NCBI GenBank assembly: GCA_019636215.1 | Contig: JAHBXZ010000007.1 | Span: 124,001 to 188,000, forward strand | From: Planctomycetota bacterium | GTDB taxonomy: Bacteria > Planctomycetota > UBA8742 > UBA2392 | Direction: 5' to 3' | Length of the DNA stretch: 64,000 nt | In this document: in pieces, positions 16,609-19,685 of the stretch | How the letters are laid out: each line of letters starts with the position of its first letter | Numbering within the stretch: the stretch's first letter is position 1 | The notes under the pieces: generated by a model | What the model saw: only the letters and a program-made list of their open reading frames with translations | Databases searched by the model: none | What the model was told of the DNA's origin: nothing | Made by a program: the position numbers and the translations under genes

Positions 16609-17607
16609 ATGGCAAGTGTCCTGATCAACGGGTTTGGCCGCGTGGGTCGCGCGCTGTTTCGCCTTCTGCTGGCGCGCCCGGACGTCAACGTACTGCGCAT
16701 CAATGACCCGCTGCCCGCCGGCCAACTGGCCTACCTGCTGAAGTACGACAGCTGCATGGGTCGGCTGGATCTGCCCGTGCGTGCTGAAAACGGGCACCTT
16801 CTGGTGGGGGATACGCGGGTCGCGCTCAGCCACGCAGAGGCGCTGGGCAAGGCCGAAGTCGCCGGCTGCGACCTGGTGGTCAACAGCAGTGGTCGCAACA
16901 ACAGCCCGCGCAACCTGCGCGAGATTCTGGACCTTGGTGTGCGGCGTGTCGTGGTCAGCAAGCCGTTGGCGCGCGGTGATTGCGACCGCACGATCTTGCG
17001 CGGCGTCAATGATGCTGACTTGCAGCAGTCCGACCGCGTGATCAGCGCCGGCAGTTGCACGGCCCACTGTTTCGCGCCGCTGGTACGCGCGGTTCACGCC
17101 CGCTGGCCGGTGCAGGCAGGCTACATGATGACCGTGCACGCCTACACCAGCGCACAGAACCTGGTGGATGGCGGCCACGCCGGCGACCCGCGCCGCGGCC
17201 GTGCGGCGGCAGCCAACATCGTGCCCACTACCACAGAGGCAATGCTGGCCTTTGAGCAGGCCGTACCGGAACTGGCCGGGCGCATCCATGGCATGGCCCA
17301 GCGTGTACCGGTGCTGAACGGCAGCAATGTCGAACTGGTGCTGCAACTGCGTGGCACGGTGGAGGCCACGGACCTGAATGCGGAGATTGCCCGGGTCTCG
17401 CAAGGGCCGTTGCTTGGAGTCGTAGAGTACAGCACAGACCCGCTTGTCAGCAGCGACATTGTCGGCAACCCGCACTCGGCGGTGTTTGACAGCGCCCTGA
17501 CACACTGCATTGCGCAGGGCGAAAACACACTGGCGCGGCTGGTGGCCTGGTACGACAACGAGTGGGGCTACGCCAACCGGCTGGCGGAGTTGTTGTCGCA
17601 ACTGTAG
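16609..17607 (+). CDS. gap: Glyceraldehyde-3-phosphate dehydrogenase, divergent
   Basis: A 332-residue GAPDH that makes 1,3-bisphosphoglycerate in glycolysis or runs in reverse in gluconeogenesis. The NAD loop is VLINGFGRVGRALFR. The active-site region is SAGSCTAHCFAP (Cys about 150), where most family members read SNASCTTNC. The partner His lies in MTVHAYTSAQNLVDG (about 177), and WYDNEWGYANRLAEL closes the enzyme. NSSGR replaces the common ESTGR. The catalytic pair is kept, so activity is likely, but substrate or cofactor could differ. It lies 0.9 kb before pgk. Confidence 0.9.
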   Translation: MASVLINGFGRVGRALFRLLLARPDVNVLRINDPLPAGQLAYLLKYDSCMGRLDLPVRAENGHLLVGDTRVALSHAEALGKAEVAGCDLVVNSSGRNNSPRNLREILDLGVRRVVVSKPLARGDCDRTILRGVNDADLQQSDRVISAGSCTAHCFAPLVRAVHARWPVQAGYMMTVHAYTSAQNLVDGGHAGDPRRGRAAAANIVPTTTEAMLAFEQAVPELAGRIHGMAQRVPVLNGSNVELVLQLRGTVEATDLNAEIARVSQGPLLGVVEYSTDPLVSSDIVGNPHSAVFDSALTHCIAQGENTLARLVAWYDNEWGYANRLAELLSQL

Positions 17608-17738: not shown

Positions 17739-17990
17739 ATGGCCAAGAAGAAGCCCGCCAAGAAGGCGGCCAAAAAAGCAAAGAAGCCCGCAAAGAAAGC
17801 CGCCAAGAAGACAGCAAAGAAGCCGGCAAAGAAAGCCGCCAAGAAGACGGCAAAGAAGCCCGCAAAGAAGCCTGCCCGCAAGCCCGCCAAGAAGGCGGCC
17901 CGCAAGCCGGCCAGGAAGCCTGCCGCCAAGCCCGCGCCGGTTGCCTCAGCGCCCGCCACAGACGTTGAGTCGTCCAGCGACGAGGAATAG
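17739..17990 (+). CDS. Lysine-rich histone H1-like protein
   Basis: An 83-residue protein, almost all Lys/Ala/Pro up to about residue 66 (AKKPAKKAAKKT repeats), then a short acidic tail (DVESSSDEE). The 12-residue unit is also a 36-nt tandem repeat in the DNA. Such proteins resemble the C-terminal domain of eukaryotic histone H1 and bacterial H1-like or AlgP-like proteins. They bind DNA non-specifically and condense the nucleoid. No folded domain is present. ATG 17739 has AGGGGA about 6 nt upstream. A perfect-stem terminator follows within 25 bp. Confidence 0.85.
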   Translation: MAKKKPAKKAAKKAKKPAKKAAKKTAKKPAKKAAKKTAKKPAKKPARKPAKKAARKPARKPAAKPAPVASAPATDVESSSDEE

Positions 17991-18013: not shown

Positions 18014-18036
18014 CCCGGCCCGCAAGGGCCGGGTTT
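18014..18036 (+). terminator. Terminator of the H1-like gene
   Basis: CCCGGCCC, loop GCAA, GGGCCGGG, then TTT. The stem is a perfect 8 bp. Confidence 0.7.
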
Positions 18037-18068
18037 GCATTGGACGGCGGCTTGCCGGCAAAGGTGCG

Positions 18069-18092
18069 CGGGCCCCGCTTGCGCGGGGCCCG
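18069..18092 (-). terminator. Strong hairpin, probable minus-strand terminator
   Basis: On the minus strand CGGGCCCCGC, loop GCAA and GCGGGGCCCG form a perfect 10-bp stem, with CTTT shortly after. It abuts the structured element at 18096-18331, so it would end a minus-strand transcript of that element. The GCAA loop reads in the minus direction, like the terminator facing it. A plus-strand role cannot be excluded. Confidence 0.5.
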
Positions 18093-18095
18093 GCC

Positions 18096-18331
18096 GGAAA
18101 GAGACAGGAGAGGTGGGTGCCTGGAGGGAAGAAGCCGGGGGAGCGGTGGCGCAACGAAGAACAGCGGGATGTCGGCTTCTGTCGTCAGGTGCCAAGCCGG
18201 GTTGCGAGCTTCGGAGTCCTGAGCGGTTGCGGGTGGGAGAGCAGGCGTGGGGTCCTGCTGCTCAAACTCCGTCCACCGTAACTCGGCGCTGTGGCGTTCA
18301 GGTGCCTGGTGTTTAGGCGTGTCTCCTTTCC
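18096..18331 (-). ncRNA. Candidate structured non-coding RNA, family unknown
   Basis: About 236 gene-free bases with nested long-range complementarity, in plus-strand coordinates: 18096-18106 pairs with 18320-18331 (11 bp, one bulge) and closes the element. 18116-18123 pairs with 18186-18193 (8 bp, two GU). 18130-18137 pairs with 18173-18180 (8 perfect bp). 18225-18236 pairs with 18273-18283 (11 bp, one bulge). 18240-18245 pairs with 18254-18259. The result is a closed multibranch fold. The minus strand is favoured by the hairpin at 18069-18092 and a TATGTA word just outside the closing stem. I see no landmarks of tmRNA, RNase P, SRP or 6S RNA. No overlapping frame looks coding. Confidence 0.45.
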
Positions 18332-18485
18332 TGTTACATAGAACGTACAACGCCCGCGCAAGGTTGGCAAAAACCTGGGGCCGAATGCTTCACCAATGCG
18401 GAATGCAACGTTTGCCCTTGCGGCGCCGCGAACATTGCTGGCCCCGCCCAAACGGCGCAATATAGTGCGGGCAGGAGGTGCGAAC
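18332..18485 (+). other. pgk upstream region, promoter not resolved
   Basis: 154 bp between the structured element and pgk. It holds a small hairpin near 18362-18376 (GGTT and AACC) and a TATAGT word at 18461-18466, but no well-spaced -35. AGGAGG lies 6-8 nt before the pgk start. Confidence 0.3.
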
Positions 18486-19685
18486 ATGGATTACAGCAGC
18501 ATCAAAGGCATCGAAGCGCTGGGCGACCTCAAGGGCAAGCGCGTGTTTGTGCGCGCCGACTTCAACGTGCCGCTTGAGGGCACCCGCATCACCAGCGACG
18601 CCCGCATCACCGCCGCACTGCCCACGATCAAGCTGCTGCTGGGCAAGGGCGCACGGGTGATCCTGGCCAGTCACCTGGGCCGCCCCGAGGGCAAGGGCTT
18701 TGAGGCCGAATACTCACTGGCGCCCGTCGCAAAGCGCCTGTCCGAATTGCTGGGCTTTGAGGTAACCCTGCAGCCCGATTGCGTGGGCGAAAACGTGCGC
18801 AAGGGCGCACTGGCAGTAACCGACGGCCATGCAACGCTGCTGGAAAACGTGCGCTTTCACAAGGCCGAGAACAAGGGTGCTGAGGCCTTCGGGCGTGAGC
18901 TGGCGTCTTTGGCCGAGTTCTACGTCAACGATGCGTTCGGCACCTGCCACCGCGCCGACGCCAGCATGACTTGGCCGGCGAAACTGCTTCCCAGCGCTGC
19001 GGGCCTTCTGGTCAAGGCCGAAGTCGACGCCCTGGCCACAGTGCTGACCAACCCCAATCGCCCGTGTCTGGCCGTGCTGGGCGGGGCCAAGGTCAGCGAC
19101 AAGATTCCGCTGGTGAACAACCTGCTGTCGCGCGTGAACGAGATCTGCGTCGGCGGCGGCATGGCCTATACGTTTCTCAAGGCCCAGGGTCACAAGATCG
19201 GCAAAAGTCTTTGCGACGACAGCAAGCTGGACGACTGCAAGAAAATGCTGCTGCGCGCCCGCGAAAACAACGTGGCGATCCACCTGCCCAAAGACCACGT
19301 CATTGCCCACGGCATGGACGACGAAACCGCGCATATTGACCGCGGCGACATCCCCGACGACTTTGCGGCCTTTGACATCGGCGGCAACACCGCCAGGGCT
19401 TTTGCCAACGTGATTGCCCGCGCGAAAACCATCCTGTTTAACGGCCCGATGGGCGTGTTCGAGAAAGAGCGCTTCAGCAACGGCACACAAATCGTGGTCA
19501 ACGCCATTGCCGAAGCAACAAGAAACGGCGCCTTCAGTGTGGTCGGGGGCGGCGACAGCGCCGCGGCGGCGGAACACTTTCACGCTGACAAGCACATGAG
19601 CCACGTGAGTACCGGCGGCGGGGCAAGTCTCACGCTGCTGCAGGGCGAGCCTATGCCCGCCCTGGAGGCGCTGATCAGAAGCTGA
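18486..19685 (+). CDS. pgk: Phosphoglycerate kinase
   Basis: A 399-residue enzyme, the normal bacterial length, that transfers phosphate between 1,3-bisphosphoglycerate and ADP. The N-domain has VFVRADFNVPLE, ASHLGRPEG and LLENVRFHKAE. The C-domain has AVLGGAKVSDKIP, GGGMAYTFLKAQG, FNGPMGVFE and the nucleotide loop VVGGGDSAAAAE, then SHVSTGGGASL. ATG 18486 follows AGGAGG. The 3' end overlaps the stop of the convergent small gene by 11 bp. With gap upstream and rpe downstream it forms a loose central-carbon cluster. Confidence 0.97.
   Translation: MDYSSIKGIEALGDLKGKRVFVRADFNVPLEGTRITSDARITAALPTIKLLLGKGARVILASHLGRPEGKGFEAEYSLAPVAKRLSELLGFEVTLQPDCVGENVRKGALAVTDGHATLLENVRFHKAENKGAEAFGRELASLAEFYVNDAFGTCHRADASMTWPAKLLPSAAGLLVKAEVDALATVLTNPNRPCLAVLGGAKVSDKIPLVNNLLSRVNEICVGGGMAYTFLKAQGHKIGKSLCDDSKLDDCKKMLLRARENNVAIHLPKDHVIAHGMDDETAHIDRGDIPDDFAAFDIGGNTARAFANVIARAKTILFNGPMGVFEKERFSNGTQIVVNAIAEATRNGAFSVVGGGDSAAAAEHFHADKHMSHVSTGGGASLTLLQGEPMPALEALIRS

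Follow-up and report, generated by a model that had tools for sequence, protein, structure and literature searches.

Between the gene for an H1-like lysine-rich protein and pgk, the window (the whole stretch of 64,000 nucleotides analysed here) carries an element that is, as predicted from sequence comparison, a structured noncoding RNA gene on the minus strand, restricted to one Planctomycetota family and absent from Rfam. Comparison of relatives established its homology, strand, fold and terminator hairpin, as well as its restriction to part of that family. From the same sequences we infer that it is transcribed, and where transcription starts and ends. The RNA family is well supported, and judged by titles and the beginnings of abstracts, little small-RNA literature was found for the phylum. 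Nothing in those titles and abstract beginnings on Planctomycetota structured or small RNAs, which cannot be searched by sequence, matched the element. The compact structure, the strand and the probable ends of the RNA are defined, making it directly testable. Hfq was not found in the roughly 91%-complete genome, and the conserved unpaired C-rich segments of the RNA make it a usable starting point for studying post-transcriptional control in this uncultivated group.

Position and fold of the element

The initial annotation had described an 11-bp closing stem enclosing 236 gene-free bases, which was located exactly at 18096-18331, with one bulged G in the stem, and a 10-bp GC hairpin with a GCAA loop on the minus strand, which was found at 18069-18092. 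The reading frames across 18069-18331 are mechanical, and no conserved ones were found. The features of the locus are as follows.

16609-17607, plus strand: gap gene, neighbour of the RNA element
17739-17990, plus strand: H1-like lysine-rich gene, neighbour of the RNA element
18069-18092, minus strand: GC hairpin CGGGCCCCGC-GCAA-GCGGGGCCCG, 10 bp, probable intrinsic terminator, its position kept in aligned relatives
18096-18331, minus strand: body of the predicted noncoding RNA, 236 nt from P1 start to P1 end, with homologues, compensatory changes and no Rfam match
18342-18370, minus strand: promoter-like site TTGCCA-17-TACGTT upstream of the RNA, weak and below the strict-scan threshold
18486-19685, plus strand: pgk, neighbour, divergent from the RNA

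The H1-like protein has 83 aa, mostly AKK/PAKK repeats, and G005 has a similar gene, convergent to the RNA (locus L034). A plus-strand GC hairpin at window positions 18014-18037 (about CCCGGCCCGCAAGGGCCGGGTTT) probably terminates transcription of the H1-like gene.

In the fold, P1 closes the molecule, P2-P3-P4 form one arm and P6 forms the other. Its parts, all on the minus strand, are:

18320-18331, minus strand: 5′ strand of P1, GGAAAGGAGACA, with one bulged G, pairing with 18096-18106
18280-18287, minus strand: 5′ strand of P2, GCCGAGTT, covarying
18261-18271, minus strand: 5′ strand of P3, CGGAGTTTGAG, covarying
18241-18258, minus strand: P4 hairpin GCAGG-ACCCCACG-CCTGC, its 8-nt loop identical in 10 aligned sequences
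18224-18240, minus strand: unpaired C-rich strand TCTCCCACCCGCAACCG between P4 and P3, conserved
18212-18223, minus strand: 3′ strand of P3, CTCAGGACTCCG, covarying
18196-18203, minus strand: 3′ strand of P2, AACCCGGC, covarying
18173-18179, minus strand: 5′ strand of P6, GAAGCCG, covarying
18131-18137, minus strand: 3′ strand of P6, CGGCTTC, covarying
18096-18106, minus strand: 3′ strand of P1, TGTCTCTTTCC, its pairing kept through changes in relatives

The 11 bp of P1 are GGAAAG(G)AGACA / TGTCTCTTTCC, and the pairing was kept despite changes to GGATAAGGAGACG/CGTCTCCTTATT in L006 and GACTCAAGGAGACG/CGTCTCCTGAGTC in L011. P2 changed from GCCG/CGGC in the window to CCAG/CTGG in genus g4 and CCGGGTTCC/GGAACCCGG in G005, and P3 from CGGAGT/ACTCCG in the window to CGGATTC/GAATCCG in g2 and CGGACTCT/AGACTCCG in G005. 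For P6, GAAGCCG/CGGCTTC in the window is replaced in relatives by GAATGCC/GGCATTC, AAGGCC/GGCCTT or GGCCGG/CCGGCC. The P4 stem also covaries (alignment A1), while its loop ACCCCACG is invariant in 10 of the 11 known sequences, G005 differing in both stem and loop. Within the C-rich strand, all 10 aligned sequences share CNCCCACCC unchanged, and G005 has the related ACCCATCCCACC. By eye, a GGA/AAG internal loop between P2 and P3 is common to g1, g4 and G005. Pairing of the G-rich strand of this loop with the C-rich strand was considered and not adopted, its register varying by genus and the pairing being absent in g2. The shortened G005 version retains P2, P3, the C-rich strand and the terminator and has neither P6 nor the usual P1. 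The P2-P4 arm is therefore the likely core of the RNA, as the only arm that G005 keeps besides the terminator.

Covariation, strand and transcription signals

Covariation was measured on a MAFFT alignment of ten sequences, built without fitting it to a structure. In it, the six-helix fold paired 89.4% of the cells, against 85.0 ± 0.6 in shuffled alignments, and both partners had changed in 11 pairs, where the shuffles gave 3.8 ± 1.4 (0/500). When one side was slid by 1-3 columns, 30-49% of the cells were paired, a comparison in which the structure has an advantage because it was derived from the same sequences, and the pairs changed on both sides numbered at most 4. A hand alignment, which included G005 for P2 and P3 and leans towards the structure, gave 16 pairs with compensatory changes. 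Moreover, unconstrained folding of individual homologues mostly yielded the same helices. The known sequences number only 11, from one family. The initial annotation had proposed an unassigned structured RNA and had named compensatory changes in aligned relatives as a check; such changes are present and, together with the lack of any Rfam family in the window or the relatives, they support that proposal.

The body had, on the other hand, been read on the plus strand. In the both-strand fold prediction that had also been suggested, each strand of 18069-18331 was better than dinucleotide shuffles: the plus strand gave −130.9 kcal/mol (z −2.47) and the minus strand −102.9 kcal/mol (z −3.01; 0/200 shuffles equally good). 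A helix on one strand implies one on its complement, which largely explains the helices on the plus strand; an extra long plus-strand stem (GGGTGCCTGG / TCAGGTGCC) depends on G-U pairing and corresponds to nothing in the supported structure. Across the ten homologues, folding z-scores were −1.8 to −6.0 for the RNA strand versus +0.3 to −2.7 for the opposite strand, which folded more weakly in nearly all of them; in this comparison the window's own sequence gave about equal scores for its strands (−1.83 and −1.95). The plus-strand reading folds, yet it was rejected for its weaker z-scores across relatives and its lack of promoter and terminator logic. The homologue z-scores, with the promoter-like and terminator features, place the RNA on the minus strand. 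In relatives it also lies on the same strand, directed away from pgk and with the GC hairpin after the fold. Given that the RNA strand is minus in the window, the hairpin, previously listed as a separate minus-strand feature, is reread as the probable 3′ terminator of the RNA.

A U-run follows this hairpin in most relatives (CTTTTT, CTTCTTTT; for example GCGGGGTCCGCGCCTTTTT in L002 and GGGCCCGCTTCTTTT in L003), and the window's own tail is weak (CGCACCTTTGC, CCTTTGC). Because the gene upstream, pgk, is on the other strand in both the window and G005, transcription of the RNA would have to begin within the intergenic gap or antisense to pgk. A weak −35/−10 pair with 17-bp spacing is present there in L001, in L002 (at the same position and spacing as in the window) and in L006, L007, L008, L010 and L011 (TTGTTT/TTGTTG-17-TATCTT/TATCGT), and with 18-bp spacing in L004 and L005 (TTGGTT-18-TATCTT). 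Strict promoter and terminator scans of the window's minus strand reported neither.

A direct repeat of about GCCGTTTTGCGA / GCCGTTTGGCGA with 28-bp spacing was seen about 110-65 bases upstream of the RNA start in L003 and L006, and also in L004, L005, L008 and L010. In most g2 and g4 sequences the best or equal-best upstream direct repeat had this spacing, L007 being the exception. The repeat sits upstream of the putative RNA promoter, was not found in the window's own genus, and perhaps represents putative regulator binding sites.

Distribution among relatives and comparison with Rfam

Homologues were sought by blastn in a set of 60 genomes made up of the window's genome and its relatives. 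The element was matched in the window's genome and in ten others of the same family, one of which (L009) was rejected as a chance match inside a long coding frame. A covariance model of the P2-P4 arm recovered the blastn homologues and a divergent copy in G005 (52 bits). The RNA is thus known from 11 genomes, the window's and 10 others, in genera g1, g2, g4 and g5 of one Planctomycetota family. Genomes of g3 and g6 carry another sequence beside pgk, and the covariance model found no credible copy in them; the G010 assembly is without pgk. Outside the family, no credible copy was found by the model, under stricter filters, among 392 genomes drawn from the phylum. Each genome had one copy in the model search, except for one repeat-type match in G007.

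Weak covariance-model matches in other Planctomycetota and in G007/G012 (L027-L033) were rejected as inverted arrays of GGAGTCC-like heptads that match on both strands. Such inverted 7-base arrays (like GGAGTCC or GGGTTCC) make long hairpins in several Planctomycetota genomes, at four places in G184, and mimic the RNA model; they were seen at 1501-1602 in L027, 1501-1582 in L028 and about 1500-1630 in L029-L033. Two of the ten pattern matches in genome contigs, on contigs titled Edaphobacter and Paenarthrobacter (L047, L048), had no covariance-model match and were rejected as chance.

The gene downstream of the RNA varies among genomes, being the H1-like gene, gap, or another gene in L002/L051, and it usually lies on the opposite strand, convergent to the RNA. 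Among the genomes looked at, the H1-like gene adjoins the RNA only in G000 and G005. In genus g4, two genes on the RNA strand lie between pgk and the RNA (L044, 3187-4624), encoding proteins with an FPxPxPxFPxPxRP-like start, and a protein with a similar start was seen at 3339-4064 of L045.

No family of Rfam 15 reached its cut-off anywhere in the window, a search at E up to 10 returned only noise over the element, and the relatives had no Rfam match above noise, so that the covariance-model search suggested in the initial annotation gave no known family. The weak matches (naRNA4, BjrC68, CC0196 and others; E at least 0.1) were rejected, being below gathering scores and mostly on the GC hairpin.

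Proposed mode of action and alternatives

With somewhat more confidence than doubt, we predict that the element is a stand-alone trans-acting regulatory RNA working through its C-rich unpaired segments. A structured RNA of about 260-275 nt would be transcribed on the minus strand from 18331 to about 18069, starting at its own promoter in the intergenic gap, divergent from pgk, and ending at the intrinsic terminator. It would fold into the closing stem P1, the P2-P3-P4 arm and the second arm P6, and these helices would display C- and A-rich, G-poor unpaired segments, namely the P4 loop ACCCCACG, the strand CUCCCACCC and further copies of CCCAC. Their partners would most likely be G-rich stretches of mRNA; a protein with affinity for C-rich single strands is a less likely partner.

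C makes up about 35-53% of the unpaired bases in the ten homologues, and G about 6-12%. CCCAC occurs 34 times, against 11.4 ± 3.2 in shuffles, in sequences that are related, so that the counts are not independent, and CUCCC is enriched along with it. The anti-Shine-Dalgarno core CCUCC, with 8 occurrences against 10.3 ± 2.8, is not enriched in these homologues. In the literature surveyed, the alpha-r14 / NfeR1-type sRNAs of Alphaproteobacteria are the nearest concept. They are C-rich, with three hairpins that carry CCUCCUCCC in anti-Shine-Dalgarno loops (PMC10746234). Like them, the planctomycete element is predicted to be a stand-alone RNA, with helices that display conserved C-rich unpaired segments while the stem sequences vary. 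The planctomycete RNA, however, is larger and multibranched with a closing stem, repeats CCCAC instead of CCUCCUCCC and has no Rfam match; the repeated CCUCC(UCCC) in unpaired loops that marks the alpha-r14 type was not found in it. An exact 11-mer complement, GYGGGTGGGAG, was no commoner than its reversed control in these genomes and did not recur at gene starts in them, and for this reason no mRNA target is supported.

The lack of a recurrent extended complement, together with Hfq not being found, counts against the main reading and fits a possible but less probable role, in which the stand-alone RNA serves as a protein scaffold or decoy in a small RNP without base pairing. The protein site would be the GGA/AAG internal loop between P2 and P3 with the C-rich strand, both conserved even in the shortened G005 version. 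Bacterial Y RNAs have a closing stem formed from the two ends and a stand-alone gene, features predicted here too, and their partner is the TROVE/Ro protein. Against this role, TROVE/Ro gave no match in the roughly 91%-complete genome, and no conserved protein gene accompanies the RNA (the limited occurrence of the H1-like neighbour is given above). The element differs from the Y RNAs in having no Rfam match. More speculatively, and with a rather low probability, the element may be a new RNA class in which a three-way-junction scaffold with the ACCCCACG loop and the CCCACCC strand has a function of a kind unknown in other bacteria, for instance as a C-rich decoy for a Planctomycetota translation or transcription factor, with its location at gap-pgk linking it to central carbon metabolism.

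Its compact conserved fold followed by a terminator-like GC hairpin resembles transcription-terminating riboswitches, so a cis-acting leader (riboswitch or attenuator) controlling a same-strand downstream gene was considered. However, such a leader is improbable because the downstream gene is usually convergent or differs among genomes, with no conserved gene on the same strand; moreover, the terminator hairpin stands apart from the rest of the structure and no alternative antiterminator pairing was seen. We regard as slightly more improbable still a conserved DNA element that makes no RNA, such as a bidirectional terminator, a repeat or a protein-binding region. The GC-rich, intergenic position and the equal folding z-scores of the window's own strands would fit such an element, but the compensatory changes lie in long-range helices, folding is strand-biased across relatives, unpaired bases are better conserved than many stems, and the copy is single per genome apart from the G007 match.

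Of the regulatory or housekeeping RNA named in the initial annotation, the housekeeping part is unlikely because the searches detected the RNA in a single family, and in two genera of that family it was not found. A divergent 6S, SRP, RNase P or tmRNA, which the length of about 260 nt and the long closing stem might suggest, is effectively refuted and has a negligible probability: 6S RNA shares the length class and the long closing stem but differs in architecture, none of the four covariance models matches at the element and, as the annotation had held that the fold resembles none of these RNAs, all four scored above cut-off at other places in this genome, with 6S RNA (RF00013) on contig C31, RNase P RNA (RF00010) at C1:426157-426589 (279 bits), tmRNA (RF00023) at C31:181660-182013 (155.7 bits) and SRP RNA (RF00169) at C34:95990-96075 (59.9 bits).
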